Assembly (NCBI GenBank): GCA_003138485.1
Contig: PLGF01000166.1
Coordinates: forward strand, 757 to 64,756
Direction: 5' to 3'
DNA: 64,000 bases
From: Verrucomicrobiales bacterium
GTDB taxonomy: Bacteria > Verrucomicrobiota > Verrucomicrobiia > Limisphaerales > Palsa-1400
Numbering within the stretch: the stretch's first letter is position 1; each line of letters starts with the position of its first letter. This document shows, piece after piece, positions 5,179 through 33,879 of this stretch. Position numbers and translations under genes: made by a program. The notes under the pieces were generated by a model. It did not search any database. It had not been told where the DNA came from and saw only the letters and a list, made by a program, of their open reading frames with translations.

Positions 5179-5199
5179 TCACAAGCCAGACTGACGCCC

Positions 5200-7759: not shown

Positions 7760-9049
7760 ATGCCAGAACAAATACAAGTGCCCCCCACTCAGAATCTGGG
7801 TTTGTTGGGGCAGCAGCAGTCCGCTCTCAGGGAAGCGGCGCCGCAGATCGCGGACCCCGCCAAAGTTAAAAACGATCTCGGCCTTCTTGGGCCGGAGGAG
7901 ATTGCCACCGCAGTCAAACAGAAACAGGTGGACCCGGAACTCGACCGCCAGGCCGCCGACTTTGTCGGCAAGCTGCTCAAAGTCCCGGCCCAAGACGACG
8001 AAGCCCAGGAGCAGGCAGCGCTCTCCGTCGAGAATCTCGGCGTGATCCAGCAACGCAAGGCCGCGACCGCCAACCAGCTTCTCCAGCAGCCGCTCAAGCG
8101 GCTCGGACAGATTGGCGGCGGCGAGGGGCAGGGCATCGCCGACGCGTTGACCAACTTGAAAGTCCAGTTCGACGAAATTGATCCGGCCCGGTTTAATTTT
8201 GATTCGGGCTGGGCGGGCCGGATCGCCGGCCATATTCCGGGGATCGGCAACAAACTCAATCGCTATTTCACGCGATTTGAATCGTCGGGCAAAGTCATCG
8301 AGTCGCTTTTTGATTCCGTCGAGGTCAGCCGCCAACAACTGGTACGCGACATTGACACGCTCAAAGATGAGCAGACGACCATGCGCCAGGCGACGCGCGA
8401 TCTCATGCGGTATATCGCCACATGCCAGTTGATCGACGAGAAACTCTGCGCTGAAGTCGCCAAGTGCGATCCGCAGAGCGATCAGGCGAAGTATATCAAC
8501 ACAAAGCTTATCTTCCGCCTGCGCCAGCGCATCACGGACCTGCAGCAGCAGTTGGTGGTCAATCAACAAGGCGTGCTGATGTTTGAAGTGCTCATCGAGA
8601 ACAACAAGGAACTCATTCGCGGCGTCAATCGCTGCAAGAACGTCACCTATCCCGCCCTGCTCATCGGCATCACCGCCGCGCAGGCGCTGGCCAATCAGAA
8701 GATCGTTCTGAACAAAATCCAGGCCCTCGATGACGTGGGCAACAGAACCATCGCCTTCAACGCCAAGCTGCTCGCCACCCAGGGAATTGAGATTCACAAG
8801 CAAGCCGCTTCGGCCCAACTCTCCGACGCCGGCCTGGCGCAAGCCATGAAGGATGCCATCAAGGCCCTGGATGACGTGGATTCCTTCCGCACGCGCGCCT
8901 TGGAGCAGATGGGCGCGGCCATCAAAGAGAGGAACTCTCTCACCGCCATGGGCGAGGAAGCCATGTCAAGAATGGAGCGCGGCAACAAGGCCGCCGTCAC
9001 CTTGAATCTCGACCAAGATCTTACGGCAACAGGTAAAAAGAACGAATAG
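7760..9049 (+). CDS. telA: Toxic anion resistance (TelA/YaaN) family protein
   Basis: Long helical protein with TelA-type segments (FESSGKVIESLFDSVEVSRQQLVRDIDTLKDEQ...; YPALLIGITAAQALANQKIVLNKIQALDDVGNRTI). Confidence 0.75.
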   Translation: MPEQIQVPPTQNLGLLGQQQSALREAAPQIADPAKVKNDLGLLGPEEIATAVKQKQVDPELDRQAADFVGKLLKVPAQDDEAQEQAALSVENLGVIQQRKAATANQLLQQPLKRLGQIGGGEGQGIADALTNLKVQFDEIDPARFNFDSGWAGRIAGHIPGIGNKLNRYFTRFESSGKVIESLFDSVEVSRQQLVRDIDTLKDEQTTMRQATRDLMRYIATCQLIDEKLCAEVAKCDPQSDQAKYINTKLIFRLRQRITDLQQQLVVNQQGVLMFEVLIENNKELIRGVNRCKNVTYPALLIGITAAQALANQKIVLNKIQALDDVGNRTIAFNAKLLATQGIEIHKQAASAQLSDAGLAQAMKDAIKALDDVDSFRTRALEQMGAAIKERNSLTAMGEEAMSRMERGNKAAVTLNLDQDLTATGKKNE

Positions 9050-9068: not shown

Positions 9069-10163
9069 ATGAATTCATTCAAAACAGCCCTCTCTCTTGT
9101 CGCGGTTGCCATCGGCAGCCTGCTTCCTCTCAAGGCCGGCGCGGCCGATCCGCCCCAAACATACCGCTATTTGTGGTCCCACTACACCGGCTGGGAGCCT
9201 TGGCAGTACATTGCCGACTCCGGCATCATGAAGAAGTGGGCCGACAAATACGGCGTCAAGATCGAAGTCGCCTTGATCAATGACTACGTGACCAGCATCA
9301 ACCAGTTCACCTCCGGCCAGGCTGTCGGCTGCGCCATGACGATCATGGACGCGCTGGATATGCCGGCCTCCGGCGGCGTTAATTGCGATGTGCTGGTGGT
9401 CGGGGATTACTCCGACGGCAACGACGGCCTGGTTCTCTTCAATGGCAAATCGGTGAAGGACGTCAAGGGCCGGAAAGTGCTCATAGTCAAAGACTCCGTT
9501 TCATCCTATCTTCTTTCGCAGGCCCTCAAAGCCGAGGGGATGCACGATGCCGATGTGACTGAGGTCAATACGTCCGACGCCAATATCGGCGCGACCTTTG
9601 CCACTTCGGGTGACCGCGGCGCCACGGTCACCTGGAATCCTATCCTGATGCAGGTGCGCAATCTGCCGAAAGCCACGCTCGTTTTTGATTCATCAAAGAT
9701 TCCCGGAGAAATCCAGGACCTTCTGGTGGTTCGCCGCGACGCTCCCGATGCCGTCAAGAAGGCCCTGGTCGGCGCATGGTATGAAGCGATGGCCATCATG
9801 TCGGGCCAGGGAAAGCAGGCGGATGCGGCGATTGAAGCCATGGCGAAATTCGCCGGCGGCACCGTTCCTGAGTTCAAGGCCCAACTGCGAACGACGCGGA
9901 TGTTCTACACGCCGCAGGACGGGATTGCGTTTACCGAAAGCCCAGTGCTTGAGAAGACAGCCAAAACAGTGGCGGGCTTTTGCTTCGATCACGGCCTTTT
10001 GGGACAAGGCGCCAAATCGCCGGACGTCATCGGCATTGAGTTGCCGAACGGGAAAATTGTCGGGGACCCCAAGAACGTCAAGCTGCACTATAACAACGAC
10101 TATGTAAAAGCGGCGGCGGCGGGGAAGTTGGCGCTCCACGTCAACGACATGACCACCCCATGA
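9069..10163 (+). CDS. ABC transporter substrate-binding protein, urea-carboxylase-region (TIGR03427-like) type
   Basis: Signal peptide, YRYLWSHYTGWEPWQYIADSGIMKKWADKYGVKIEV..INDYVTSINQFTSGQ..GCAMTIMDALDMPASGGVNCDVLVVGDYSDGNDGLVL. Confidence 0.75.
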   Translation: MNSFKTALSLVAVAIGSLLPLKAGAADPPQTYRYLWSHYTGWEPWQYIADSGIMKKWADKYGVKIEVALINDYVTSINQFTSGQAVGCAMTIMDALDMPASGGVNCDVLVVGDYSDGNDGLVLFNGKSVKDVKGRKVLIVKDSVSSYLLSQALKAEGMHDADVTEVNTSDANIGATFATSGDRGATVTWNPILMQVRNLPKATLVFDSSKIPGEIQDLLVVRRDAPDAVKKALVGAWYEAMAIMSGQGKQADAAIEAMAKFAGGTVPEFKAQLRTTRMFYTPQDGIAFTESPVLEKTAKTVAGFCFDHGLLGQGAKSPDVIGIELPNGKIVGDPKNVKLHYNNDYVKAAAAGKLALHVNDMTTP

Positions 10164-10164
10164 T

Positions 10165-11013
10165 ATGACGGAATTGAAGCGCAATACCCCTCTGTTCTGG
10201 GGTCTTTATGCCCGCCCGGGCATGGTGTTTGGGCGTCTGCTCGGACTCCTGCCCGTGGCGGCGCTGCTGGGTTTGTACATGTTCGCCTCCCATGCCCGGG
10301 CCGTGAAGAATCCCGATGACAAACTCATGCCCTCATTGCGCCAGATGTACGTCGAGATGAAGACCATTATCACGGTGCCCGACAAGCGATCCGGCAAGAT
10401 TCTATTCGTGGAGGACACCAAGGCGAGTTTGAAACGGCTTGCGCTGGGCATCAGCATCGCCGCCGTGGCGAGCTATTTCGCGGGAATTCTCATGGGAATG
10501 TTCCCGGGGATTCGCGCCCTGTTCGCTCCGCTGGTGACAGGCTTGTCAAACATCAATCCGCTGGCTGTCCTGGTGATCGTCCTTGTGGCGCTTGGAGTGG
10601 GAGAAAGCTCCAAAGTGTTCCTGATTGCTTTTGGCATCGGCATACCGATGATGCGGACCATTGCCGGCCTGGCGGAACGGATGCCAACCGAACTGACTGT
10701 CAAGGCGCTGACCTTGGGAGCCACGCAATTTCAGGTGTTATACAAGATCATTGCCCCGCAGATGTTTCCGCGGCTGATCGACCTCATTCGAGTTTCGCTG
10801 GGGGCGGCATGGATATTTGTAATTGCGGCGGAGGCGGTGGCCGCCACCGAAGGTTTGGGTTACCGGATTTACCTCCAGCAAAGATACATGAACATGGCTT
10901 TGATCATACCTTATGTCATTTATATTTCCCTTCTGGCCTACACCAGTGATCTGGCGTTGCAGGGGATATTGAAACTCCCCTGCTTCCGGTGGTACAGCAG
11001 AGGCGACGAGTAA
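10165..11013 (+). CDS. ABC transporter permease (BPD_transp_1 type)
   Basis: Multiple TM segments and EAA-like loop (ALTLGATQFQVLYKIIAPQMFPRLIDLIRVSLGAAWIFVIAAE). Confidence 0.85.
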   Translation: MTELKRNTPLFWGLYARPGMVFGRLLGLLPVAALLGLYMFASHARAVKNPDDKLMPSLRQMYVEMKTIITVPDKRSGKILFVEDTKASLKRLALGISIAAVASYFAGILMGMFPGIRALFAPLVTGLSNINPLAVLVIVLVALGVGESSKVFLIAFGIGIPMMRTIAGLAERMPTELTVKALTLGATQFQVLYKIIAPQMFPRLIDLIRVSLGAAWIFVIAAEAVAATEGLGYRIYLQQRYMNMALIIPYVIYISLLAYTSDLALQGILKLPCFRWYSRGDE

Positions 11014-11028
11014 GAGGAAAGAGCCGTC

Positions 11029-12039
11029 ATGGAGTTCATCCCCAGACCGAAGCCGGCGATCACCGGAAACGAAGCGATCCATCTTGAGGACGCCTATCAC
11101 GGCTATTACGATCCCTCAAACCGCCGCGTGCGGACTGTGCTCAACGACATTGACTTGATCATCAGCCGCGGCGAATTCGTCTCGCTCGTCGGACCTTCGG
11201 GCTGCGGCAAATCCACTCTACTCAAGCTCTTCACCGGCCAGGAAATGGTCCAAAAGGCCAAGTACTTCCAAGTCCTCGGACGGCTGCCCTCTTTTCCCGA
11301 CCGCAGCCGCGGAGTTGTATTCCAGAACTATGGTCTTGCCCCGCATTTGACCGTCCAAAGAAACATCCTGCTAGGCCTGGAGTTTCAGTCCAGCATGCTC
11401 CAGCGCTTTTCGCCAAGCTGGTGGAGGCAAGCCAAGGACATGGCGCGCAAGTATCTGGATGACATGCGTCTTTCGGACGCGAGTAACAAATATCCCTCGG
11501 AATTGTCCGGCGGAATGCGGCAGCGGGTGGCAATCGCCCAGACACTCATTACCATCGATCTCTTCGGCATGCCGGACCTGATTTGCATGGACGAGTCTTA
11601 CGGCGCCCTGGATGCCAGCACGCGGGAAGATTTGCAAATCTTCATCCTCAAGTTGTGGGAGAAGTACAAAAAAACCGTTGTCTTCGTGACCCACAACCTC
11701 GAGGAAGCCGTCTTCCTTGGCACCCGGGTCATCGTCCTGTCGCAATTCTGGACTTCGGACCTGCCGGCCGCGCAGGAGGAAGGCTCCAGAATCATCATGG
11801 ACATCCCGCTCGAACCGCACGCCATGTCAACAGAAGTCAAACAAACAACTGCGTTCAAGGAACTGACGAAATACATCCTCGAGCGCGGCTTCAACCCCAA
11901 ACAGCGTCTGCACATCGCGCAATTCAACGCCGATCTCCGCCACCCAAACGCCTTTTCGTCCCTGACCCGGGAACAATTCGACGCCAGCCAGCCCGCGCCA
12001 CCCGCCGCTGCACCACCCCCGGACAGCAAACCTGGATGA
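11029..12039 (+). CDS. ABC transporter ATP-binding protein (nitrate/taurine type)
   Basis: Walker A GPSGCGKST, signature LSGGMRQRVAIAQ, Walker B LICMDESYGALD, H-loop THNLEEA. Confidence 0.9.
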   Translation: MEFIPRPKPAITGNEAIHLEDAYHGYYDPSNRRVRTVLNDIDLIISRGEFVSLVGPSGCGKSTLLKLFTGQEMVQKAKYFQVLGRLPSFPDRSRGVVFQNYGLAPHLTVQRNILLGLEFQSSMLQRFSPSWWRQAKDMARKYLDDMRLSDASNKYPSELSGGMRQRVAIAQTLITIDLFGMPDLICMDESYGALDASTREDLQIFILKLWEKYKKTVVFVTHNLEEAVFLGTRVIVLSQFWTSDLPAAQEEGSRIIMDIPLEPHAMSTEVKQTTAFKELTKYILERGFNPKQRLHIAQFNADLRHPNAFSSLTREQFDASQPAPPAAAPPPDSKPG

Positions 12040-15845: not shown

Positions 15846-17360
15846 ATGAGCAAGACTATTGATTTGAATCCTGTCACGCGCATCGAAGGCCATTTGGCGG
15901 TCAAGGTGGAAATACAAGACGGCAAGGTGGCCAGCGCGTATGTCGCCGGTGAAATGTTCCGGGGTTTCGAGAAAATCCTGGCGGGGCGCGACCCGCTGGA
16001 CGCCCAGCACATCACCCAGCGCATCTGCGGCGTCTGCCCGGTGGAGCACGGCATGGCGTCGGTGCTGGCGCAGGAAATGGCTTACCAACTGGCGCCGGCG
16101 CCCAACGGCGTTCTGGCGCGCAATCTGATCCAGGCGGCCAATTTCATCATGTCGCACATATCCCATTTCTATCTCCTTTCCGGGCTGGATTTTGTGGATG
16201 TGGCGATGATTGTCGATTACAAGGGGGGCGATTCCGCCCTGGCGGCATTGAGGGACTGGGTGAAAGGCCAGATCAACTCCCGCACGGTCATTCCAGCGGC
16301 GCCTTTTCTCCCCCGTTACGCCGCCAAATACCTGCAGGACGCGGACGCGAATTTCAGCGCGCTGCGGCACTATCTGGATGCGCTGGAGATGCGGGCGCTG
16401 GCCCATCGCATGGGCGCCATTTTTGCCGGCAAATTGCCGCACGCCGCCACGCTGGTGCCCGGCGGCATCACGGAGAAAGTCACCGCGCTCAAAATCTGTG
16501 AGTACCGCTCCGCGCTGGACACCTTGCGCGAGTTCATTGACCGCGCGTATCTGCCGGATGTCGTGGCTGTCGCCAAGTCGTTTCCCGAATACTTCAACGT
16601 GGGGCGGGGCTGCGGCAATTTCATGGCTTACGGCGCCTTTCCCGTTTCCGCCGGCAGCGACGCCAAATTCCTTCCGTCCGGTGTTTTGATGGATGGAAAA
16701 GCGCAGCCGGTCAGCGAGAGAGCCATCACCGAAGACGTGGCGCGGTCTCTCTATTCCTCCGCGTCCGGCCGCCGTCCCAGCGAGGGTGAAACCGTCGCTG
16801 ACCCGAACAAATCGGGCGCGTATTCATGGCTGAAAGCGCCGCGTTACAATGGCGCGGTCATGGAAGTGGGCGCGCTGGCGCGGGTGCTGGTCGCCTATCA
16901 GGACAGCCAGAATGGCACGATGAAGAGCGCGGTGGACGGCCTGCTCAAGAACCTGGGGCGGGAAGCAGGCGACCTGAACTCCGTGATGGGCCGCCATGCC
17001 GCGCGAGCTTTGGAGTGCAAATCCATCGCCGACCAGTGCGTGCGATGGCTGGACCAAATGACGCCCGATGGGGCGACATTCACCGATTTCTCAATTCCCG
17101 AAACCGGGCGCGGCCATGGGCTGACGGAAGCGGCGCGCGGAGCGCTGGGTCACTGGATAGACATCCGCGACTTCAAGATCGGCAATTACCAGTGCGTGGT
17201 GCCGACAACATGGAACTGCTCGCCGCGGGACGACCGCGGGGTTCCCGGGCCGATGGAGCAGGCGCTGGCCGGCCTGGCGGTCGCGGACCCGGAGAATCCG
17301 ATTGAAGCCGCGCGGGTCATCCGCTCGTTCGATCCCTGCCTGGCCTGTGCCGTGCATTAA
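15846..17360 (+). CDS. [NiFe]-hydrogenase large subunit lacking the C-terminal maturation extension
   Basis: RIEGHL, RICGVCPVEHGMAS (L1) and terminal DPCLACAVH* (L2). Confidence 0.95.
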   Translation: MSKTIDLNPVTRIEGHLAVKVEIQDGKVASAYVAGEMFRGFEKILAGRDPLDAQHITQRICGVCPVEHGMASVLAQEMAYQLAPAPNGVLARNLIQAANFIMSHISHFYLLSGLDFVDVAMIVDYKGGDSALAALRDWVKGQINSRTVIPAAPFLPRYAAKYLQDADANFSALRHYLDALEMRALAHRMGAIFAGKLPHAATLVPGGITEKVTALKICEYRSALDTLREFIDRAYLPDVVAVAKSFPEYFNVGRGCGNFMAYGAFPVSAGSDAKFLPSGVLMDGKAQPVSERAITEDVARSLYSSASGRRPSEGETVADPNKSGAYSWLKAPRYNGAVMEVGALARVLVAYQDSQNGTMKSAVDGLLKNLGREAGDLNSVMGRHAARALECKSIADQCVRWLDQMTPDGATFTDFSIPETGRGHGLTEAARGALGHWIDIRDFKIGNYQCVVPTTWNCSPRDDRGVPGPMEQALAGLAVADPENPIEAARVIRSFDPCLACAVH

Positions 17361-17375
17361 CCACCGGATAAACAC

Positions 17376-18296
17376 ATGAACTCTCTAAGCCGCCGTTCCT
17401 TTATCGAACTGAGCACCAAGCTGTGCGCCCTCATGGGCCTGGGCGCGGGCGCAATCCCGCGAGTGGCCGAAGCGGTCGAAGAACTGGCGTCGGGCAATGC
17501 GCCGGTGTTGTGGCTCCAGGGGCAAAGCTGCTCCGGCTGTTCGGTCTCCCTGCTGGATGCCGACGCCATCGCCCCCGCCCATCTCATCACCCGCTACATC
17601 AACCTCTCCTTTCACCAGACTTTGTCCGCCACCACTGGCACTCAGGCGGTGGAGACGGTCAACAAGATCATTGCCGCCGGCGGCTACATCCTGGTTGTTG
17701 AAGGGGCGGTCCCAGCCGCGATGCCAAGAGCCTGCGCCTTTGGCGGCGAGCCTTTCGGCGAGCAACTCATCCGCGCGGCCAAAGCCGCCAAGGCGGTGGT
17801 GGCGGTCGGTTCCTGCGCGTCCTTTGGCGGAATTCCCGGGGCGGAGAATAATCCCACCGGCGCCATCAGCGCCGTGCAGCACCTCAAGAACCAGGGCGTC
17901 AGCACGCCCGCCATATTGATACCCGGCTGTCCGTGTCATCCGGACTGGTTGCTGGGCACCTTGACCCATGTGCTCAAAGTGGGCATCCCGCCGCTGGACG
18001 CGTTGGGACGCCCCAAGGCGTTTTTCTCGCGGCTCATGCATGACCAATGCGCGCGCTTTCCGGACTATGAACGGGAAAAGTTCGCAAAAACCTTTGGCGA
18101 CGAAGGCTGCCTATTCAAACTGGGCTGCCTTGGCCCGATAACCCACACTGACTGCGCCCTGCGCCAGTGGAACGGCGGCGTGAACTCGTGCATCCGTGCC
18201 GGCGCTCCCTGCACCGGGTGTGGCGGAGAACAGTTTGCCGCCAAAGCCAACCTGCCGTTCATCACTAAAAAACGGGCGGCGCAACAACAGGGATAG
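17376..18296 (+). CDS. [NiFe]-hydrogenase small subunit with Tat signal
   Basis: Tat motif SRRSFIE; Fe-S ligand motifs WLQGQSCSGCSVSLLD, GSCASFGG, PGCPCHPDW, NGGVNSCIRAGAPCTGC. Confidence 0.95.
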   Translation: MNSLSRRSFIELSTKLCALMGLGAGAIPRVAEAVEELASGNAPVLWLQGQSCSGCSVSLLDADAIAPAHLITRYINLSFHQTLSATTGTQAVETVNKIIAAGGYILVVEGAVPAAMPRACAFGGEPFGEQLIRAAKAAKAVVAVGSCASFGGIPGAENNPTGAISAVQHLKNQGVSTPAILIPGCPCHPDWLLGTLTHVLKVGIPPLDALGRPKAFFSRLMHDQCARFPDYEREKFAKTFGDEGCLFKLGCLGPITHTDCALRQWNGGVNSCIRAGAPCTGCGGEQFAAKANLPFITKKRAAQQQG

Positions 18297-18302
18297 AACG
18301 CC

Positions 18303-19868
18303 ATGCAACTCCACTTCAAACCCATCCTTTGGCTCGTCGGCGGAATCGTCGTAATGTTTGGTATCTCGCTGGCTATGGAACTCCATAGCAGCACCAAGCT
18401 GCTGCAGCGGCTGGCCGACGAAAACCTCGTCCTCATCGAAAAATCCGAGTGGAAGAACGCCGAGAACGTCTTTCTTACCACTCAAAACGCCGTCAAAGGT
18501 TCCCTGGAGCGGGGGGAGATGGAGAAGTTCATCAGGATTCTGGAGACGCAGCGCAGCGTCAAAGGGCTTCTGGAATTCTCCCTCTACAGCCCCGACGGCG
18601 TGGTGACGCATTCCACCGATTCGGCTTTCTTGAAAAACTCGATTTCACCGGATGTGCGGGCCACTCTCCAATCCAAGCCCGTGCGCTTCGAACGGCGCAC
18701 GGACCAGGCGTTTGAAATCTACGAGCCTCTGGCCGTTACCCCCGACTGTGTGCGCTGTCATACCCGATGGAAGGAAGGCGGCACCGGCGGCACGCTCTTT
18801 TGCCGTTTCTCGACCGATTCCCTCACCCAAACCAAGCAAGCCTCAACAGCTTCCCTGGCGAAGACAAAAAATTCCCAGATTCTGGGCGGATCGGTCACAA
18901 CCGTCATCATCACCGTGATCTTTGTCGTCCTGGCCGTCCTGGTGGTCCGCTACCAAATTGCGGCCCCTCTAACGGCGGTGCTCAACCACCTGACCGGCGC
19001 CTCGGACCAGGTCCGCGCCTCCTCCAGGCAGATCAACACCGCCAGCCAGTCGCTGGCGGATGGCGCGAGCAAACAAGCCGCATCGCTGGAGGAAACCAGC
19101 GCTTCCATGGAAGAACTTTCCTCCATGACCAAGTCCAACGCTGACAACGCCCGCGAAGCCAAGGAGCTGGCCGACCACGCCCGGCGCGCCGCCGATGTGG
19201 GCACCACCGAAATTCAAAACATGAACCGGTCGATGGATGACATCAAGCAAGCCAGCAACAACATCGCCAAGATCATCAAGTCCATTGACGAAATCGCCTT
19301 TCAGACCAACATCCTCGCCCTCAACGCCGCCGTCGAGGCCGCGCGCGCCGGCGAGGCCGGCCTGGGCTTTGCGGTCGTCGCCGACGAAGTCCGCAGTCTG
19401 GCGCAGCGCAGCGCCAAGGCCGCGCACGAAACCGCGGAGAAAATCCAGGATTCCATCACCAAGAGCGACCGCGGGGTCCAGATCAGCCTGCAAGTTTCCA
19501 AGAGTTTCGAGGAGATCAATGACAAAATCCGCAAGGTGGATGATCTGGTCGCCAGCATCGCCAGCGCGTCCAATGAGCAGAGCGAGGGCATCAGACAGGT
19601 CAGCACCGCTGTGAGCGAGATGGACAAAGTCACGCAATCCAACGCCGCCAGCGCCGAGGAAAGCGCGGCCGCCGCGCTGGAGCTCAATTCCCAGGCCGAC
19701 GCCCTTAAGGCGGCGCTGAGCAAGATGCTGCACCTCATGGCCGGGGCCAAGGCCGCGGCCGAAAATGACGCGGACTCCACGTCCACGCCGCCGCCGCCGC
19801 CGCGTCCTCCCTCCGGCAGGCGTCTCTCGAATCCTGCCCGCCGCGCCCACTCAGCCGTGGCGTCTTGA
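18303..19868 (+). CDS. Methyl-accepting chemotaxis protein with periplasmic domain containing a c-type haem motif
   Basis: TM1, periplasmic ~160 aa with [11 protein letters not shown] (CxxCH), TM2, signalling hairpin [41 protein letters not shown]. Confidence 0.93.
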
Positions 19869-20078
19869 GGTTCCATAGCTGGGAGTAATATTCCCGGCAA
19901 ATTCGTCTCAAGCTGTTCTCAAATTCTGCCGATAAAAAACTGACACTCGTGGACAGAGCTGCGAGCAGCCTTGCCGGCTTGGGACATCGGCCCTGCCCGG
20001 CGAAGGCGGGTTAGAGAGATCGACATTGCTGATGTAAGAGGGCACCGCGGACGCGAGCGCCGAAGTGAAACGAAAACT

Positions 20079-20591
20079 ATGACAACGACATCGGAAGCAA
20101 GTTCATCCAACCTCCTGGCAAAGCCGGGAAGATACCTCACTTTCTTACTGGGACACGAGTTTTACGGGCTGCCCGTCCTGAGGGTGCGTGAGATTATCCG
20201 TCTGGTGGAGATCACCCCCGTTCCGCACATGCCCCCTTATGTGAAGGGCGTCATCAATTTGCGCGGAAAACTGGTGCCCGTGATGGATTTGCGAATCCGA
20301 TTCGATCTGGCGGCCCATGACACCACGGAAACCACCTGCATTATCGTCGTTCAAGTGAAATCCGCCTCCGGCGGGGCCATTCACATGGGTTTCATTGTGG
20401 ATGGAGTGGAGGAGGTCATAAATTTCGCCGAAGGCGACATAGAAAACACGCCCGATTTCGGAATGAAGCTGGCCACCGAGTACCTGCCCGGCATGGCCAA
20501 TGTCAAAAACAAGGTGATCGCCCTTCTGGACATCGACAAGGTGGTCGATAAGGCTTCGCTCGATAAATTGACCCCGGCCCCATCCGCTTAG
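20079..20591 (+). CDS. cheW: Chemotaxis coupling protein CheW
   Basis: YLTFLLGHEFYGLPVLRVREIIRLVEITPVPHMPPYVKGVINLRGKLVPVMDLR. Confidence 0.95.
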   Translation: MTTTSEASSSNLLAKPGRYLTFLLGHEFYGLPVLRVREIIRLVEITPVPHMPPYVKGVINLRGKLVPVMDLRIRFDLAAHDTTETTCIIVVQVKSASGGAIHMGFIVDGVEEVINFAEGDIENTPDFGMKLATEYLPGMANVKNKVIALLDIDKVVDKASLDKLTPAPSA

Positions 20592-21890: not shown

Positions 21891-24110
21891 ATGACGAGCA
21901 TTGATCCAGGCACCCGGCTCGCCGAACTTAAGAAGCTCGGCGATAAGATTGCCACCGAATTAGTCTTCGCCGAATCGGGCAAGGACCTTGGGCTGCTGCC
22001 TGTCAACAGCCTGCTTGGCCGGATCGAGGATTTGGCCGGCGGCGAGGCCGCGATCGAGCCGCTGGCGCGCGGGATAACCCAGGCGCGCCAATGGATGAAC
22101 GCCGTATTCCAATCCACCGGCACATTCGAATTGCTCACGCTCAAGCGTCTTGGAGAATGGGTGGAATGGTGGCAGGCCTCGATTTCCGCCTGTGAAGCCC
22201 AAAGCGCCCCCCCTCCCATTCCCTCCCACTGGGAAGTTGCCGGGAAGCAGCCCGTTGCGCTGGAATCGTCCCCAACCAAGATGGAGGAGCCTTTGTTGAC
22301 GTTGAACCTTGAGCAGGACGGCGAACTACTCAACGAGTTCATCAACGAATCCCAAGAACACTTGGAGAACATCGAACAGGGCGTGCTTGTTCTTGAACAG
22401 AATCCCGCCGATGCGGACACCCTCAATTCCATCTTCCGCGCTTTTCACACTTTCAAGGGCGGCTCCGGCTTCCTCAATCTAACAGCCATTCAATCGCTGG
22501 CGCATGAGCTGGAGTCACTCCTTGATTTGGCCCGGCAGAAAAAACTGGCCATCACCCCTTCGGTCATCAACCTGATACTGGAGGGCGGGGATACGCTCCG
22601 GCAATTCTGTAACGCCGTGTCGGCCCAAGCGACTGGCAAGAATCCGCCAGGGCCCATTTTGGTGCCCACCCTCGCCTTGCTCAGCCGCATACGCTCCGAG
22701 GTGGCAGGCGAGCCGGCGTCAATCAGTTTCCCAACCCCGTCCGCCGCCGTGTCACAGCAGCCCCCGCCGGAAGCTCCAGCCATGCCGCCGGTCGCCGAGG
22801 CCGCGACGCCCGGAGTTCAGCCGCCCGTCGCCAAGACGCCAGCCACCCTCACCGGCGCGGTCGCCATGCCCGGAGCGCAACCGCCGGCCGCCAAGGCCCC
22901 AAGCGCCGTCGCCTCGCAAGGAAGCTCCGCTGGAACCGTCGTGAAGGTGGACACGGCGAAGCTGGACAGTCTGGTTGATCTGGTGGGCGAGATGTTGATT
23001 ACCCAATCCCTGGTGGTGCAGAACAAAGACCTGAACTCAGGACAGAACGAACAATTGACTCGAGATCTGGCCCAACTGGGCCGCATCAGCAAAGACCTCC
23101 AACGGACGGTCATGTCCCTGCGAATGGTGCCGGTCCACGCCACTTTTCAAAAGATGCACCGCCTGGTGCGGGACCTTTCCATCAAAGTCGGCAAGCAAAT
23201 TGAACTCTTGACCGAGGGAGAGGACACCGAGTTGGACCGCACGATAGTCGAGGAGATCAGCGATCCGCTGGTCCACATGATCCGCAACTCGATTGATCAT
23301 GGCATCGAGAAGCCGGAGGTTCGCGTCCAGCGAGGCAAACCGGCGCACGGCACCATTACTCTCAAAGCGTTCCATCAAGGCGGCAACATCGTCATTGAAA
23401 TCAAGGACGACGGCAACGGATTGGATCGGGAGCGAATCCTGGCCAAGGCCGTTGAAAAGGGACTCGTGCGCCCCGAAGAGCAGGTTCCCGACAGCGAACT
23501 CTTCAACCTGATTCTGAGCGCCGGCTTTTCCACCGCCGAGAAAGTGACCGACATCTCCGGCCGCGGCGTCGGAATGGATGTCGTCAGGCGCAATATCGAG
23601 AAGTTGCGCGGCAAGATGGAGATTCAATCCAAGGCGGGACAAGGCTCAACCTTCAGCATCTTTCTGCCGCTGACGCTGGCGATCATTGATGGTTTGCTCG
23701 TGGGCGTTGGAGAGCACCGTTACATTGTCCCCACCCTGTTGGTGCGCGAGTCATTTCGGCCCGTGGCAGGCCGGATCCACACATTGCGCGAACGCGGGGA
23801 GATGGTCAATTTGCGCGGGCGTCTCTATCCAATGCTGCGCCTATACGCACACCTGGGAATCGAGCCTGCGACGACCGATCCCGAACAGTCCATTGTCGTC
23901 GTGGTGGAAGCGGGCAATGAAATCCTCTGCCTGCTGGTGGACAAGCTGCTCGGCAAACATGAGGTCGTCATCAAGAGTCTGGGCGAGACGTTTCGCCAGA
24001 ACAAATACCTGGCCGGCGCCGCCATTCTGGGCGACGGACGCGTGGGTCTGATTCTTGATCCCCACGCTTTGGTGCAGACGAAATCGGCTCCGATGGAAGC
24101 CGCCGCCTGA
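21891..24110 (+). CDS. cheA: Chemotaxis histidine kinase CheA
   Basis: Hpt AFHTFKGGSGFL, N-box VHMIRNSIDHGIE, G-boxes DDGNGLD and SGRGVGMDVV, C-terminal CheW-like domain. Confidence 0.95.
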   Translation: MTSIDPGTRLAELKKLGDKIATELVFAESGKDLGLLPVNSLLGRIEDLAGGEAAIEPLARGITQARQWMNAVFQSTGTFELLTLKRLGEWVEWWQASISACEAQSAPPPIPSHWEVAGKQPVALESSPTKMEEPLLTLNLEQDGELLNEFINESQEHLENIEQGVLVLEQNPADADTLNSIFRAFHTFKGGSGFLNLTAIQSLAHELESLLDLARQKKLAITPSVINLILEGGDTLRQFCNAVSAQATGKNPPGPILVPTLALLSRIRSEVAGEPASISFPTPSAAVSQQPPPEAPAMPPVAEAATPGVQPPVAKTPATLTGAVAMPGAQPPAAKAPSAVASQGSSAGTVVKVDTAKLDSLVDLVGEMLITQSLVVQNKDLNSGQNEQLTRDLAQLGRISKDLQRTVMSLRMVPVHATFQKMHRLVRDLSIKVGKQIELLTEGEDTELDRTIVEEISDPLVHMIRNSIDHGIEKPEVRVQRGKPAHGTITLKAFHQGGNIVIEIKDDGNGLDRERILAKAVEKGLVRPEEQVPDSELFNLILSAGFSTAEKVTDISGRGVGMDVVRRNIEKLRGKMEIQSKAGQGSTFSIFLPLTLAIIDGLLVGVGEHRYIVPTLLVRESFRPVAGRIHTLRERGEMVNLRGRLYPMLRLYAHLGIEPATTDPEQSIVVVVEAGNEILCLLVDKLLGKHEVVIKSLGETFRQNKYLAGAAILGDGRVGLILDPHALVQTKSAPMEAAA

Positions 24111-24136: not shown

Positions 24137-24976
24137 ATGCCGCCGGTAATGAAAGAAGACGCCGCGGAAGCGGAGGCTTGCCAGTACATCGCAAGGCTCG
24201 TCTATGGCCGCTGCCGAATCCGGCTCCACGAAGGCAAGGATGCCCTCATCAAAGCCAGGCTGGGAAAGCGGATGCGCAAGCATGGTTTTGGCGGGCTGGC
24301 GGAATACTGCGATTTCCTGCGGACAAAAGGCGATGAAGAGGAAGTCACCGGAGTCATTGACGCGCTGACGACCAATGTCACCAATTTCCTTCGGGAACCC
24401 GAACATTTCCAGTTTCTAGTCGAACAGGCGCTGCCTTCGGTGCTGCCCAAGAACAGAAAAAGATTTCATATTTGGAGCGCGGCCTGTTCATCGGGCGAAG
24501 AGCCTTACACTATCGGCCTCTATCTCTCCGAGCACTACTCCCCGGCGCTGGGCTGGGACTGGCGGATTGCCGCGTCGGACATATCCACCAAAGTGCTCGA
24601 ACAGGCGCGCCTGGGAATCTACCCGGTCGAACGCCTGGAGGCGATGCCGCGGGATTGGTTGCGCAGATACTTCCAGAAGGGAAACGGGTGCTGGGAAGGC
24701 TCCTGCCGCGTCAAACCTGGCATTTCCGAACGGGTCACTTTCCGGCAAATCAACCTGATTGAACCCTACGATCATCCGCAGTCCTTCGAGGTGATATTCT
24801 GCCGCAACGTCATGATATATTTCGACCGCGCCACGCAGGAGCAATTGGTGCGACAACTCTGCCGCTTCCTGGTCCCCAAAGGGTATCTCCTGATTGGACA
24901 CTCGGAGAGCCTCAACGGGCTGAACGTACCGCTGCGTTGCCTGCGGCCCAGCGTCTTTCAAAAAAACCCTGTCTAG
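24137..24976 (+). CDS. cheR: Chemotaxis protein methyltransferase CheR
   Basis: VTNFLREPEHFQFL, IWSAACSSGEEPYTIGLYL, DISTKVLEQARLGIY, IFCRNVMIYFD. Confidence 0.95.
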   Translation: MPPVMKEDAAEAEACQYIARLVYGRCRIRLHEGKDALIKARLGKRMRKHGFGGLAEYCDFLRTKGDEEEVTGVIDALTTNVTNFLREPEHFQFLVEQALPSVLPKNRKRFHIWSAACSSGEEPYTIGLYLSEHYSPALGWDWRIAASDISTKVLEQARLGIYPVERLEAMPRDWLRRYFQKGNGCWEGSCRVKPGISERVTFRQINLIEPYDHPQSFEVIFCRNVMIYFDRATQEQLVRQLCRFLVPKGYLLIGHSESLNGLNVPLRCLRPSVFQKNPV

Positions 24977-24978
24977 CC

Positions 24979-25524
24979 ATGCCCTCCCCATCACTTACAA
25001 GCATCCTGGGTTTTGATCGGAAGCTCATCGTGGGCGTCGGCGGATTGGCGGTTTCCAACAACCAAGCGTCGATTCTAGCGACATATTCTTTGGGGTCTTG
25101 CCTTGGTGTCACCATATACGATCCGGTTGTTCGCGCCGGCGGCCTGTTGCACGCGATGCTCCCGGATTCCTCGATCAATGCCGCCAAGGCGGCCGAGCAA
25201 CCCGCCATGTTTGTTGACACGGGCGTTGGCGCCTTGTTTCGAGCCGCCTACGCGCTCAAAGCCGTCAAACACCGCATGCAAATCTGTGTCGCCGGCGGGG
25301 CTCAGTTTCTGGATAAGTCCGGCTTTTTCAATATCGGCCAGCGCAACTTTGCCTGTCTGACTCAATTGTTCGGCCAGCATGGTTTGACGATCGACGCGTC
25401 GGACGTGGGAGGACTGGTCAGCCGAACCATCCATCTGCACGTGGCAACCGGCGAGGTGCGGCTGATGTGCTCCGGCCAGCGCGAGGAATCCATACTGTTC
25501 AAAGGTTATGCAAGCGTTGGATAA
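24979..25524 (+). CDS. cheD: Chemoreceptor glutamine deamidase CheD
   Basis: ATYSLGSCLGVTIYDP, GGLLHAMLPDS, CVAGGAQFLD, GGLVSRTIHLHVATGEV. Confidence 0.92.
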   Translation: MPSPSLTSILGFDRKLIVGVGGLAVSNNQASILATYSLGSCLGVTIYDPVVRAGGLLHAMLPDSSINAAKAAEQPAMFVDTGVGALFRAAYALKAVKHRMQICVAGGAQFLDKSGFFNIGQRNFACLTQLFGQHGLTIDASDVGGLVSRTIHLHVATGEVRLMCSGQREESILFKGYASVG

Positions 25525-26356
25525 CTACATCAAGAAGATCAAGACGCTGCCTCCCAGCCCGCGGGTTCTGGCCCGGTTGCTGGTCCTTTTGAACGAGGCT
25601 GACGGCCACGCCAGCGAAATCGTCGATCTCATCGCATTCGATCCGGCCTTGACGGCCAAGGTGCTGCAACGCTGCAACAACGCCGCCTCCGGCCTGGCTG
25701 GCACGGTCACTCATCTTGATCAAGCTGTGACGCTGGTGGGTTTTGACGCCATTTATCGCCTGGTTGCAATGGTCGTCGGTGAGGGTGTTCTGAGCGCCAA
25801 ACAGCCCGGCTACGGCATTGGCACGGGGGAACTGTGGGAGCATTCCATCACCACCGCCGTCGCCGCCAGAGTGATTGCCCGTCAATTGGGCGGCGACGAG
25901 AATCTCGCCTTCACCGCGGGGCTGTTGCATGACATCGGCAAACTGGTGCTCAGTTCTTATCTGGAGGATTGCCAGGAATCCGTTGTGAGGGACACGCAAC
26001 ATTCGGGCCGTTCTTTTCTCGAAGCCGAGCAGACCGCCCTGGGAGTGGACCACGCCGAAATCGGCGGACTGGTGCTGGAGGAATGGAGTTTCCCGGAGAA
26101 TCTGGTCAAAGCCGTCCGCTACCATCATGACCCGCCCCAAGCCCGGCCGCATGAGCAGTTGGCTGCGTCTGTTCATTTGGGAGACATCATCGCGCACTTT
26201 GTCGGACAGGCTCAGGGGATTGACTCCTTTGCCGTGCGGACCCAATCCGAAGCGCTGGAAATACTGGAAATCAGCCCGGTGGAATTGGACACTTTGATAA
26301 TCGATACAGACAGCGCATTGAAAGAATGCGCCGGTCTTATCCCGACTGCATCATGA
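25508..26356 (+). CDS. HDOD-domain signalling protein
   Basis: LPPSPRVLARLLVLLNE..IVDLIAFDPALTAKVLQRCNNAASG, TAGLLHDIGKLVLSSY, HAEIGGLVLEEWSFPENLVKAVRYHHDP. Confidence 0.9.
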   Translation: MQALDNYIKKIKTLPPSPRVLARLLVLLNEADGHASEIVDLIAFDPALTAKVLQRCNNAASGLAGTVTHLDQAVTLVGFDAIYRLVAMVVGEGVLSAKQPGYGIGTGELWEHSITTAVAARVIARQLGGDENLAFTAGLLHDIGKLVLSSYLEDCQESVVRDTQHSGRSFLEAEQTALGVDHAEIGGLVLEEWSFPENLVKAVRYHHDPPQARPHEQLAASVHLGDIIAHFVGQAQGIDSFAVRTQSEALEILEISPVELDTLIIDTDSALKECAGLIPTAS

Positions 26357-27438
26357 ACGCCAAACCCATTCGCCTTCTGGTGGTCGATGACTCCGCGCTG
26401 GCTCGCAAGATCATCACCAGCAGCCTGGCGCCGTTTGCCGACATCGAAGTGGTGGGCACGGCGGTGGACCCTTATGTGGCGCGGGACATGATCCTGGAAT
26501 TGAACCCGGACGTCGTCACGCTGGATATTGAAATGCCGCGAATGGACGGCGTCACTTTCCTCAAAGTCATCATGAAACACCGGCCGATGCCGGTGATCAT
26601 CATGAGTTCCATTACTCCCGCGGGTTCCGTCAAGGCGCTCGAAGCCCTCCAAGCCGGGGCGGTGGATGTGATGGAAAAACCAGGCAGCCCCCACTCCGCC
26701 CATGCCGACGGCGCCCGTCTGGCCGAGAAGATCAGGGTGGCGGCTGGCGCCCGCGTGTGGGCGCGCGCCGATGACGGCGCTTTGCCGGCCCGCCAGCCGG
26801 CGCGGGCGATCGGGCCGCGCGGAACAGGGCTGCGACCCATTCCGGGGCGCAGGATTATCCTGCTGGGGGCGTCCACGGGCGGCACCGAGGCGCTGAAAAC
26901 GCTGCTAACCTCCTTGCGGGGAGACCTGCCGGGCATCTGTATTGTGCAACACATCCCGGCCTATTTTTCCAAAGCGTTTGCTGAACGCCTCGATCAAATC
27001 TGCCCGATGGAAGTCCGGGAGGCTGCCCACCTAGACATTGTGCAACCAGGCTTGGCGCTCATCGCCCCGGGAGGCCGCCACATGCTCTTGAAATGGCGGG
27101 CGGACCATTACGTGGTAGAATTGAACGACGGGCCGCCCGTTCATCATCAGCGGCCGTCGGTTGACATCATGTTTGACTCCGCCGTCAAAGCGGGGGCCGG
27201 CCCGCACACGGTGGCGGCGGTCCTTACCGGGATGGGCGCCGACGGCGCCGCCGGACTCCTGCGCCTGCGCCAGGCGGGAGCCGCCACCGCGGCGCAAAAC
27301 GAAGAGACATGCGTCGTCTTCGGCATGCCGCGGGAAGCCGTGCGGCTGGGCGCGGCGCAGCGCGTCCTGGCCCTGTCGAACATCGGAGCATTTTTGGAGC
27401 AGGAGAATCTCGAACCCATACAGCAAATTCATGAATGA
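26353..27438 (+). CDS. cheB: Protein-glutamate methylesterase CheB
   Basis: REC domain LLVVDDSALARK..VVTLDIEMPRMDGVTFL; catalytic domain LLGASTGGTEAL, IVQHIPAYFS, LTGMGADGAAGLLRLRQAG. Confidence 0.95.
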   Translation: MNAKPIRLLVVDDSALARKIITSSLAPFADIEVVGTAVDPYVARDMILELNPDVVTLDIEMPRMDGVTFLKVIMKHRPMPVIIMSSITPAGSVKALEALQAGAVDVMEKPGSPHSAHADGARLAEKIRVAAGARVWARADDGALPARQPARAIGPRGTGLRPIPGRRIILLGASTGGTEALKTLLTSLRGDLPGICIVQHIPAYFSKAFAERLDQICPMEVREAAHLDIVQPGLALIAPGGRHMLLKWRADHYVVELNDGPPVHHQRPSVDIMFDSAVKAGAGPHTVAAVLTGMGADGAAGLLRLRQAGAATAAQNEETCVVFGMPREAVRLGAAQRVLALSNIGAFLEQENLEPIQQIHE

Positions 27439-27922
27439 TCAAATTGAAAAAATAGATCGTCTAACACGAGAAGCGGTGAAGGAAGTATTCCAAAGCATGC
27501 TCAGCATGGAAGTGAACCCCGAGCCGCCCACGCCGCTGCCGGCGGATCCCGCCGGGCAGATAATTGGGTCGGTCGGCTTCATCGGCGAAGCCAACGGGAT
27601 TCTTTATCTTTATGCCGATATGTGCTTCGCCCGCGTCATCACCGGCCGCATGCTGGACATTTCCGAGCCGGAAGTGGACTCAGGGGAAATGGTGACGGAC
27701 GCGATTGGGGAATTGAGCAACATGGTGGCGGGCTACCTGAAGGCGCGGCTGTGCAGCGGCGGGTCCCCCTGCACGCTGACCATTCCCTCGGTGGTTCGCG
27801 GGCAGCAGCTCAGTGTCGAAGGTTCGGCCCAGGTCATTCGAAGAATTATCGGTTTTCGCAACTGCAAACACCACTTATTGGCGGAAGTCCTGTTAAAAGA
27901 TTCCGCCCAAAGAAACTCATGA
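27431..27922 (+). CDS. cheX: CheX-like chemotaxis phosphatase
   Basis: DAIGELSNMVAGYLKARL (ExxxN active site motif) in a ~160 aa protein next to cheB. Confidence 0.85.
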   Translation: MNDQIEKIDRLTREAVKEVFQSMLSMEVNPEPPTPLPADPAGQIIGSVGFIGEANGILYLYADMCFARVITGRMLDISEPEVDSGEMVTDAIGELSNMVAGYLKARLCSGGSPCTLTIPSVVRGQQLSVEGSAQVIRRIIGFRNCKHHLLAEVLLKDSAQRNS

Positions 27923-29043
27923 GTATTAAAATCCTTACAATAGATGATAGTAAAACCATTCGCCTCATCGTGGCGAAGGCTTTCAAACCATTTGATTGCG
28001 TGGTGCTCGAGGCCGAAAACGGCGTCGTCGGCCTGGCCGCGGCCAGCCGCGAAAAGCCCGACCTCATCCTTCTGGACTACACCATGCCCGTCATGGACGG
28101 GTTTGAGGTTCTGGCGCGGCTGCGCTCGGACCCGGACCTCAAATCCACGCCGGTCATCATGCTGACGGCGGAAGCGGGCCGGGACACGGTAATCAGAATC
28201 GCCCAACTGGGCGTGCGTGATTATCTCATAAAGCCATTCAAGGGCGAATTGCTCATCGAGCGGGTCGGTCGCGTGGTCGATTTGAAGCCCAAGGCCGCCG
28301 TCGAGAAAAAGCACAAACGGTTCGACGACCCAATCACCATCCTGGTGGCGGATGACAAACCCGCCATCCTTGCCCAGGTGTGTTCGGGACTGGCCGACAC
28401 GCCCTGGAAGGTCATTAGCGCGGATCAACCCGGCAAGGCGCTGGACTATTGCATGGGGAACGAGGTGGACCTCGTGCTGGCCAGCCTCACGCTGACCAAT
28501 GACGGGGCCTTTATGCTCCTTCAGAGTCTGCGCGGTTACGCGAACACCGCCTCCGTCCCGCTGCTGGGATTGTCCGTGCGCACGGCGACCGCCGACCAGA
28601 CGCGCGCCCAGCAAGCCGGATTCGTGGGCATCATCACCAAACCCATTGAACCTGCGGAACTCAAGGCCAAAATCTGCCGCACGCTCGGCCTGGAAACTTC
28701 CTACAAATACTTCCAGCAACGGGACGGCGCATTGGCGATTACGCTGCCCAAGGAATTCCATCCGGGCCTGGCTCACGAAGTCTCGACGAACCTGGAGAGC
28801 CAACTCATCAGCACCGTGGATGCGGGCGGCGACAAGCTGATCATTGATCTCCAATCGGTGGAATCGGCCACTTTGCCTGTCATTGAACTGATCATTTCGG
28901 TCATTCAGGCGGCCAGCAAGCTCTCGTTGCGTTTCGCCGTGGTCGGTACGGAAGCCACCAAGAACCAGTGCCGCAGTTTTCAGGAAACCGAAACCTGGCC
29001 GTTTGCCGGAAGTTTTGAACAAGCTCTGGCCTTGCTAAAGTGA
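27919..29043 (+). CDS. REC-pseudoREC-STAS-like response regulator
   Basis: REC1 ILTIDDSKTIR..LILLDYTMPVMDG..IKPFKG; REC2 ILVADDKPAIL..LVLASLTLTNDG..TKPIEP (Asp replaced); C-terminal STAS-like GDKLIIDLQSVESATLPVIELI. Confidence 0.85.
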   Translation: MSIKILTIDDSKTIRLIVAKAFKPFDCVVLEAENGVVGLAAASREKPDLILLDYTMPVMDGFEVLARLRSDPDLKSTPVIMLTAEAGRDTVIRIAQLGVRDYLIKPFKGELLIERVGRVVDLKPKAAVEKKHKRFDDPITILVADDKPAILAQVCSGLADTPWKVISADQPGKALDYCMGNEVDLVLASLTLTNDGAFMLLQSLRGYANTASVPLLGLSVRTATADQTRAQQAGFVGIITKPIEPAELKAKICRTLGLETSYKYFQQRDGALAITLPKEFHPGLAHEVSTNLESQLISTVDAGGDKLIIDLQSVESATLPVIELIISVIQAASKLSLRFAVVGTEATKNQCRSFQETETWPFAGSFEQALALLK

Positions 29044-30092
29044 ATACTGAATCCACACTCAACGCCGAATTGGACGCCGCGGCGGATTTCGCCAAGCTGA
29101 CCAAGATGCAAAAGCTGGCGATCTTGCTCCTCATGTTGTCCGAGGAAAATGCGGCTCACATCATGAAGACCCTCGAAGAGCAGGACTTGGAGGAGGTTTC
29201 CTCCGAAATGGTCAAGCTGGGCTGCGTCAGCCAGCAACTGCAGGAGACGGTCTTGCGCGAGTTCTCCGGCGTGGCGGTGGAAGCCGCGGCGGGCATCACG
29301 GGCGGTTCGGCGCGCGCCCGGAGCCTGCTTGAAAAATCCGTCGGCTTGTTCCGCGCCTCCGACATCATCGGACGCCTCTCCCCTCAACGCGCCCCTGTCG
29401 AAGCCATGCAACAAATCGTGGATATGGACACGCGCCATATCTTCAGCCTCATCCGCAATGAGCAACTGCAAACCATTGTCCTGGTCACCAGCTACCTGAA
29501 CCAGGAAAAAGCCTCGCAGCTCCTGTCCATGTTCCGCGACCAACAGCGCGAGCAAATCATTGAACGCCTGGCCACCATGATGCCAACCTCGGTCCAAGTC
29601 GTGGAGAATGTGGCCGAAATGCTCCAGAGCAAATTCGGCAAGAACCGCACCCGGACCCTCAACCAGACCGGCGGAGTCAAGGTGGCCGCCCAAGTGCTTA
29701 ACAGCATGTCGGAGAACCTCAGCAAATCCATTCTCATGTCCATCTCCGAGCGCAACGCCGATCTGGGCGAGGCCATCCTCAAGAAAATGTTCACTTTCGA
29801 CGAGTTGGAGCGCCTGGATACCAAGACGCTTCAAATCATCCTGCAAAACGTCGATACACGCATGCTGGCCGTCGCCCTCAAGTCCGCTCCGGAGAAACTC
29901 AAGAAGACTCTGCTCTCTTGCATCTCCAAACGCGCCGCGGAAAACCTCGTTGAAGAAATCACATTCATGGGGCCTCTCCGCCTCAAGGAAATCGACGGCG
30001 CCAGAGCGCAAATCCTGGAAACCGTCCGGCGGCTGGAAGCGGATGGCGACATCAGCCTTGATGAACTTCGCCATAAACCCCGCTATTCATGA
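29040..30092 (+). CDS. fliG: Flagellar motor switch protein FliG
   Basis: KLAILLLMLSEENAAHIMKTLEEQDLEEV, SILMSISERNADLGEAILKKMFTFDELERLD; GTG start overlaps upstream stop. Confidence 0.93.
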   Translation: MNTESTLNAELDAAADFAKLTKMQKLAILLLMLSEENAAHIMKTLEEQDLEEVSSEMVKLGCVSQQLQETVLREFSGVAVEAAAGITGGSARARSLLEKSVGLFRASDIIGRLSPQRAPVEAMQQIVDMDTRHIFSLIRNEQLQTIVLVTSYLNQEKASQLLSMFRDQQREQIIERLATMMPTSVQVVENVAEMLQSKFGKNRTRTLNQTGGVKVAAQVLNSMSENLSKSILMSISERNADLGEAILKKMFTFDELERLDTKTLQIILQNVDTRMLAVALKSAPEKLKKTLLSCISKRAAENLVEEITFMGPLRLKEIDGARAQILETVRRLEADGDISLDELRHKPRYS

Positions 30093-30110: not shown

Positions 30111-31160
30111 ATGAGCGAATCAATTGATACAACAGCGCCGGAGGCGGCCACCTCCGCCCCGGGGTCGAGCGACATCGTTTCGCAATCCGAAATCGAGCGC
30201 CTGTTGGCGCAGGTCGAGAGCGCCGACTCCTCTTCTGGTCAGGCCGCCAATCCGCAAGCCCCCCAGGCCACAACCGGGCACGATCTGGTCCGGCGGCATG
30301 AATTCCCCAATCTCACCTGCTTTACCGCAACGGAAATGCGCCGGCTGCGATTGCGCCACGAGGATTTCATCGGTCTTCTGGCCGCCCAGCTTTCGATCCA
30401 CCTCGGGCTTGAAGTGGGTGTGCAGATGTCAAAAATGGAAGCCATGCCGTTTCAGAAATTTGTTGACGGGCTTTCCAACCCGGCCTACCTGACGCTTCTC
30501 AGACTGCAACCCCTTCCCGAGATTTGCCTCCTGGACATCCCGCCCCGGTTGGGCCTGTGCATGGTGGACAGGGAATTGGGTGGGCCGGGCCGGCCGCAGG
30601 ACGAGTCGCGCCAGATCGGCAAAATCGAAGCCCGTCTGCTCTCCCGTCTGGTGGACCTGATCGTGCAGCAATGGTGCGGCATCTGGAACGACCTTCTGGA
30701 AATTCGACCCACTGTCCTGGGCACTGAGACCAACAGCCGCTTCGTCGCCACTTCGGCTCCGGCCGCCATCATGCTCGTCGTTGGAGCGGAGGTGCGCCTG
30801 GGGGAAACAGTCGAATCCATTCAATTCGCCTTTCCCCAGCCCATGCTCGAACCTCTGACTGTCAAGCTCAACGCCGCGTCCATCGGCGGGCCCAAACCCG
30901 ACGCCGCCGCCAAGACCGCGCCGCCGAAATGGAGTCCTCATTTTGACGATCTGCGAATCCTGGTCAGGGCGGAGCTGCCCGAAATGCAACTTCCCGCCGG
31001 CGAAGTGGCGGCCCTCAAGCCCGGTGACGTTTTGACCCTCTCGCCCGATTGCATGAGCCAGGTGCGGTTGCGCCTCGCCAACCATCCCGGATTCATCGGC
31101 AACCTGGGCCTCACCGACCAGCGGCGCGCCGTAAAAATCGAGAAACCGTGCCCGGATTGA
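30111..31160 (+). CDS. fliM: Flagellar motor switch protein FliM
   Basis: N-terminal CheY-binding-like VSQSEIERLLAQ; FliM core LGGPGRP..IGKIEARLLSRLVDLIVQQW; C-terminal SpoA-like domain. Confidence 0.9.
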   Translation: MSESIDTTAPEAATSAPGSSDIVSQSEIERLLAQVESADSSSGQAANPQAPQATTGHDLVRRHEFPNLTCFTATEMRRLRLRHEDFIGLLAAQLSIHLGLEVGVQMSKMEAMPFQKFVDGLSNPAYLTLLRLQPLPEICLLDIPPRLGLCMVDRELGGPGRPQDESRQIGKIEARLLSRLVDLIVQQWCGIWNDLLEIRPTVLGTETNSRFVATSAPAAIMLVVGAEVRLGETVESIQFAFPQPMLEPLTVKLNAASIGGPKPDAAAKTAPPKWSPHFDDLRILVRAELPEMQLPAGEVAALKPGDVLTLSPDCMSQVRLRLANHPGFIGNLGLTDQRRAVKIEKPCPD

Positions 31161-33861: not shown

Positions 33862-33879
33862 CAGCGCCACCACAATACC

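Follow-up and report, generated by a model that had tools for sequence, protein, structure and literature searches.

An extension-free, exported [NiFe] hydrogenase encoded beside a chemoreceptor: a candidate H2-sensing module in three bacterial phyla

The window, the whole 64,000-nucleotide stretch of Verrucomicrobiales DNA that was analysed, encodes an exported [NiFe] hydrogenase without a C-terminal extension beside an MCP chemoreceptor. This arrangement suggests that the bacteria sense H2 and steer by it, and do not consume it. The preferred reading, with a probability of roughly 0.66, is an H2-sensing chemoreceptor module in which the hydrogenase passes electrons to a haem of the MCP, giving taxis. 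It is built on genes, motifs, a clade, synteny and co-divergence that are observed directly, and on H2 turnover, docking, electron transfer, a haem switch and a behaviour that are inferred. The features of the window are collected in Table 1.

Table 1. Hydrogenase, chemoreceptor and chemotaxis features of the window
Feature	Position	Strand	Evidence
[NiFe] hydrogenase large subunit, 504 aa, without C-terminal extension	15846..17360	+	Pfam PF00374 E 1.2e-151; NCBIfam NF033181 632.8 bits (cut-off 600)
L1 motif RICGVC, residues 59-64; NiFe ligands C61 and C64	16020..16037	+	Sequence; both Cys invariant in alignment
L2 motif DPCLACAVH with TAA directly after; C498, C501, H504	17331..17360	+	Sequence; identical terminus in 34/34 large subunits of the no-extension type
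Hydrogenase small subunit, 306 aa, Tat motif SRRSFIEL	17376..18296	+	PF01058 and PF14720; TIGR00391 235 bits (cut-off 179.5)
MCP chemoreceptor, 521 aa: TM helix, periplasmic Cache/PAS-like domain, TM helix, signalling hairpin	18303..19868	+	PF00015 E 1.1e-47; hydrophobic segments; AlphaFold2/Foldseek
Met73 of MCP (SLERGEM), candidate distal haem ligand	18519..18521	+	Met in 22/22 MCPs with CxxCH, 0/7 without
CVRCH, c-type haem motif in MCP periplasmic domain, residues 149-153	18747..18761	+	Sequence; CxxCH in 22/29 hydrogenase-linked MCPs
CheW	19971..20591	+	PF01584 E 6.1e-35
Second MCP, hardly any periplasmic loop	20646..21872	+	PF00015 E 4.6e-47
CheA	21891..24110	+	Hpt, H-kinase_dim, HATPase_c and CheW domains; sole PF02895 match in assembly
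CheR	24137..24976	+	PF01739 E 1.4e-57
CheD	24937..25524	+	PF03975 E 8.9e-25
HDOD-domain protein in che cluster	25508..26356	+	PF08668 E 4.1e-52
CheB	26326..27438	+	PF01339 E 4.7e-58, PF00072
CheX-type phosphatase	27425..27922	+	PF13690 E 2.3e-18
Double receiver (CheY-like) response regulator	27622..29043	+	PF00072 twice
FliG, flagellar motor switch	29040..30092	+	PF01706/PF14842/PF14841
FliM, flagellar motor switch	30111..31160	+	PF02154/PF01052

The translation of the large subunit ends in ...VIRSFDPCLACAVH, and the TAA stop occupies 17358-17360. No C-terminal extension is present in the window; the chain ends at H504, as it does across the whole clade. The gap from this stop to the small-subunit ATG (17376) is 15 nt, which leaves no room to hide a lost extension of 15 residues. 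A preliminary description of this DNA had read the large subunit as ending at the mature DPCLACAVH terminus, and both the translation and the same end in 33 relatives bear this out. The RxCGxC pattern of L1 and the DPCxxCxxH pattern of L2 are both satisfied, the ligands are invariant in the alignment, and the full set of NiFe and Fe-S ligands is intact in the window enzyme. The nearest PDB relatives of the large subunit are [NiFeSe] hydrogenases. Selenocysteine was not found in L2, where position 498 is Cys (codon TGC), so the enzyme does not qualify as [NiFeSe].

The small subunit starts MNSLSRRSFIEL and has its Tat motif at residues 5-12. The TIGR00391 score above cut-off, the RR motif and the ligand sets of three Fe-S clusters (proximal 4-Cys, medial 4-Cys, distal His/3-Cys) identify it as hydA-type. 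The fourth Cys of the medial cluster is present as in [NiFeSe] enzymes, and the closest solved structures are periplasmic [NiFeSe] hydrogenases. No C-terminal membrane helix is seen in its sequence. Pfam and NCBIfam place both subunits firmly in Group 1-type families. The pairing of a Tat-signal small subunit with an extension-free large subunit, already pointed out in the preliminary description, is confirmed by SRRSFIEL, and the RR motif is common to all MCP-linked small subunits. In the small subunits of loci L108, L109, L110, L111 and L133, Asp or Glu stands in place of the second Cys of the proximal cluster (CxGC), giving CSGD, CSGE or CTGD. Of these five loci, four (L108-L111) have haem-less MCPs, and the replacement may alter electron flow there. 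In L007, the genes of the two subunits are separated by a CheY-like receiver gene (2010-2597).

The MCP of the window has the MCPsignal hairpin, and its residues 1-220 are modelled by AlphaFold2 as a Cache/PAS-like fold with a pLDDT of 84.6, from an alignment of only five sequences. In the Foldseek ranking of PDB structures, GSU0935 is second (E 7e-5) and GSU0582 tenth (E 4e-4), with modest TM-scores of 0.45-0.48 by target. A profile search with the sensor domain against PDB sequences returned nothing, and only the fold search linked it to GSU0935 and GSU0582. The fold match and CVRCH together meet the sCache_heme feature, which is a CxxCH in a periplasmic Cache-type fold. The profile matches of the sensor, Tll0287-like and Mcp40H-20_sensor, are weak. 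With PF11845, the window MCP scores 14.8 bits, below the gathering cut-off of 24.1, and the best of 23 members reaches E 0.005. The sensor domain is thus taken to work like sCache_heme (DUF3365/Tll0287), but it cannot be filed as a Pfam member. In GSU0582 and GSU0935, the c-type haem is high-spin in the oxidised state; on reduction it binds Met and becomes low-spin. Its potential is -156 mV in GSU0582 and -251 mV in GSU0935 (PMC8396549).

The haem motif is absent from seven of the 29 linked MCPs (L009, L108-L113), so electron transfer to haem is not a universal mechanism. The Planctomycetota/Lentisphaerae branch has the same MCP domain and has lost both CxxCH and Met. The correlation between Met and CxxCH is confounded by kinship, since the seven haem-less MCPs lie in one part of the tree.

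The hydrogenase-linked MCP is the first gene of a chemotaxis cluster whose last genes are FliG and FliM. No CheA besides the one in this cluster was found in the assembly (89.7% complete). The second MCP may sense through a partner protein. The CheY-like reading frame as called overlaps CheX, and translation probably starts near 27920 instead. Four flagellin matches were found in the genome, which also contains HypD and cytochrome c assembly proteins.

Hydrogenase maturation proteases are present in the genome. One lies beside a group 3-like hydrogenase on contig C55 (5980-8496), and another on C166, the contig of a group-4-like enzyme. A genome check for such a protease had been proposed in the preliminary description; it finds the protease adjoining other hydrogenases, which makes the missing extension specific to the window enzyme and not a result of an absent protease. 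Two group-4-like large subunits occur, on C94 near 88748 and on C166 near 85600-87300. The search of the genome gave no further exported Group 1 enzyme; the other large-subunit matches are group 3- or group 4-like. Upstream in the window, a TelA-family gene (7760-9049) is next to putative urea-type ABC transporter genes (9069-12039; substrate-binding protein TIGR03427, permease, ATPase). Just past the chemotaxis cluster, 31495-35832 comprises a glycoside hydrolase family 95 gene followed by a probable glycosidase gene.

The window enzyme and 33 relatives from public genomes, whose neighbourhoods were fetched, make up a set of 34 large subunits without extension. All 34 end exactly at the L2 histidine, and the relatives are about 41-62% identical to the window. 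The other 50 large subunits, including HoxG, have 5-23 extra residues, mostly 15. Close relatives were not found in the plasmid collection, where the matches listed include only hydrogenases below 40% identity. The order large-then-small, which the preliminary description had called the reverse of most, holds in 33 of the 34 loci, the exception being L006 (S-MCP-L), and nearly all extension-bearing relatives have the opposite order.

In a tree of 71 large subunits, the 33 rows without extension group together (94/84; found in 95% of bootstrap trees) within a wider set of extension-bearing enzymes. HoxC, which is 32% identical to the window, falls outside this clade of 33, next only to the long-branch row L133; once HoxC is omitted, L133 joins the clade. 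The phylogenetic placement, also proposed at the outset, therefore puts the window enzyme outside group 2b, in a separate extension-free clade, and membership of HoxC/HupV (group 2b) is rejected by the tree. The clade appears to lie inside the extension-bearing Group 1a/[NiFeSe]-like enzymes; this placement is inferred from the tree and the PDB relatives, without a HydDB classification. The C-terminal extension was lost once, in the clade whose neighbours are chemoreceptors or CheA-like kinases. The loss is an independent derivation within the Group 1a/[NiFeSe]-like enzymes and does not belong to the HoxC/HupV type.

An MCP gene adjoins the hydrogenase genes in 29 of the 34 no-extension loci, and this linkage occurs in Desulfobacterota, Planctomycetota and Verrucomicrobiota. 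The remaining five loci are L105, which is at a contig edge, L008, where no signalling gene adjoins the hydrogenase genes, and L123, L151 and L152. In these last three, the neighbour is a membrane-bound CheA-like kinase that combines Hpt and HATPase domains with a pair of CxxCH motifs in its periplasmic part, followed by CheX and CheY genes; its Pfam domains were checked in L123 and L152. A chemoreceptor or CheA-like kinase thus adjoins the hydrogenase in 32 of 34 loci. This arrangement lies at 896-4196 in L123 and at 2143-5988 in both L151 and L152. The kinase-linked hydrogenases are a fast-evolving subclade of the no-extension enzymes, and the three genomes each also carry an MCP-linked copy. 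The link to a PAS histidine kinase that marks group 2b is missing, as the partner is an MCP or, in three loci, the CheA-like kinase.

Among extension-bearing relatives, 25 loci have 3 kb or more of sequence downstream, and an adjacent MCP was found in none of them; the other extension-bearing loci have shorter flanks and carry less weight, although a Fisher comparison of the two sets takes in all 50. Two extension-bearing loci, L107 and L153, have an MCP about 4 kb downstream, not adjacent, together with a 17-residue extension and the order large-then-small. Their layout is possibly an intermediate arrangement. Distances between large subunits correlate with distances between MCP sensors at r = 0.83, a value reached in 0 of 2000 shuffles, and with those between small subunits at 0.93. 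This indicates that receptor and enzyme diverged together. The loss of the extension and the MCP link each go back to essentially a single event in the tree. Their association therefore counts as one evolutionary datum, kept over a long divergence, and not as many independent ones. Coincidence with the window's own che cluster is rejected, as an MCP adjoins the hydrogenase in unrelated genomes too.

The preferred mechanism, the H2-sensing chemoreceptor module, would begin in the cytoplasm, where the Hyp machinery assembles the NiFe site in a large subunit that is made at its mature length and can do without cleavage by an endopeptidase. Tat would then export the dimer in folded form through the signal of the small subunit. 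Once in the periplasm, the dimer is proposed to oxidise H2, and the MCP encoded next to it would receive the electrons on its c-type haem by way of the three Fe-S clusters. With H2 at micromolar levels or more and a pH near 7, the potential of the H2/H+ couple is below about -300 mV, so reduction of a haem with the potentials of the two GSU proteins is feasible. Haem reduction would recruit the Met ligand (candidate Met73) and shift the spin state and the shape of the domain, as proposed for GSU0582 and GSU0935. The changed MCP domain would alter CheA activity through CheW and then the flagellar switch, giving taxis in gradients of H2 or of H2-set redox. In the haem-less Planctomycetota/Lentisphaerae branch, only docking would be left to pass on the signal. 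The module is also carried by Desulfurivibrio alkaliphilus AHT2, which is described as non-motile (PMC5016858), and its output there may be other than swimming.

Docking in place of electron transfer could apply to the family as a whole, with the hydrogenase as an H2 sensor that signals to the MCP by a change of shape, as a regulatory hydrogenase does with its kinase, and with a haem that has another job or only fine-tunes. The MCPs that lost CxxCH and Met and are still hydrogenase-linked agree with this, as does a distance correlation that includes the haem-less loci. It remains possible but doubtful, because CxxCH and Met are kept together in 22 of 22 MCPs and the independent kinase partner has two CxxCH motifs, which favours redox coupling. 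A more conventional account, judged unlikely, is an ordinary periplasmic uptake enzyme that feeds a cytochrome pool, where the MCP reads reduced cytochrome for energy or redox taxis and the gene link is co-regulation only. The intact active-site and Fe-S ligands and the catalytic [NiFeSe]-type Group 1a relatives are in keeping with it, and DcrA-type MCPs do sense redox (PMC8396549). However, the hydrogenase and MCP genes have no cytochrome gene between them and have stayed neighbours in three phyla, and L123, L151 and L152 show the pattern again with another output, the kinase. The loss of the extension is moreover typical of sensory group 2b, though the groups that naturally lack it also include 2d, 4c, 4e and 4g, and no group 1 (PMC7294309).

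It is improbable that the MCP haem senses NO or another small ligand beside a hydrogenase of unrelated role. A 2026 preprint does describe haem-Cache domains that are joined to signalling modules as NO sensors (PMC12889525), but this leaves unexplained the clade-specific linkage and its persistence in loci with a haem-less MCP. A nonsense mutation or assembly error behind the missing extension has practically no chance of being right. Nothing was found that speaks for it, the next gene is 15 nt away, and the comparison of C-termini, named earlier as the way to expose such an error, finds the same terminus without extension in 33 of 33 relatives, which refutes it.

Against the preferred sensor model, the active site looks fully catalytic, and H2 turnover, hydrogenase-MCP binding and a behavioural response are without experimental support. 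The sensory role with protease-independent maturation that was inferred in the preliminary description is well supported by the signalling neighbours in 32 of 34 loci and not proven; its likeness to the HoxC/HupV type does not hold, and the chemotaxis receptor partner (18303-19868) was not mentioned there.

The closest solved relatives of both subunits are the Group 1a periplasmic/[NiFeSe] enzymes (Desulfomicrobium baculatum, Desulfovibrio vulgaris HysAB), which share the Tat signal, the 4-Cys medial cluster and the lack of a visible anchor. The window enzyme differs from them in the missing extension, Cys in place of Sec, the order large-then-small and the adjacent MCP. Regulatory group 2b (HoxBC/HupUV) is alike in the proposed role as H2 sensor, the naturally extension-free large subunit and the link to a signalling protein. 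In contrast, group 2b is cytoplasmic and kinase-linked, with a Tat-less small subunit, whereas the window enzyme is Tat-exported and MCP-linked. The [FeFe] group C2, 'chemotactic (putative)' in HydDB, is also proposed to sense H2 through an MCP (PMC5037454), but it is an unrelated enzyme, whereas the window encodes a [NiFe] enzyme whose small subunit is exported by Tat. Haem-c MCPs such as Geobacter GSU0582 and GSU0935 and Desulfovibrio DcrA (sCache_heme/DUF3365/Tll0287) likewise have a periplasmic Cache/PAS-like CxxCH domain fused to an MCP. The window family is only weakly similar to them in sequence, is tied genetically to a hydrogenase, and has some members without the haem motif.

The only [NiFe] sensors found in HydDB are the histidine-kinase-linked group 2b and the putative diguanylate-cyclase-linked group 2c (PMC5037454). 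A neighbourhood survey includes an MCP cluster among the genes near [NiFe] hydrogenases, and no comment on the cluster was found there (PMC12727194). No description of a [NiFe] hydrogenase coupled to an MCP was found in the full-text literature; most subscription papers were outside its scope, and a prior description is not excluded.

The chances are about even that these enzymes are a widespread family of exported [NiFe] hydrogenases with no other function than to read the ligand for chemoreceptors and CheA-like kinases, and that H2 is read by enzymatic electron transfer across a protein-protein interface and not by receptor binding. Hydrogen is a major currency between anaerobes, and to our knowledge no receptor is established for finding it by swimming. 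As a candidate for an H2-taxis receptor, the module is concrete and conserved across three phyla, and one of its carriers is an isolate with a published genome. It would further offer a natural example of a Group 1 hydrogenase that matures with no protease, a case relevant to the purpose of the C-terminal extension. Annotation by homology would label these enzymes respiratory uptake hydrogenases, and H2 oxidisers would thereby be overcounted.
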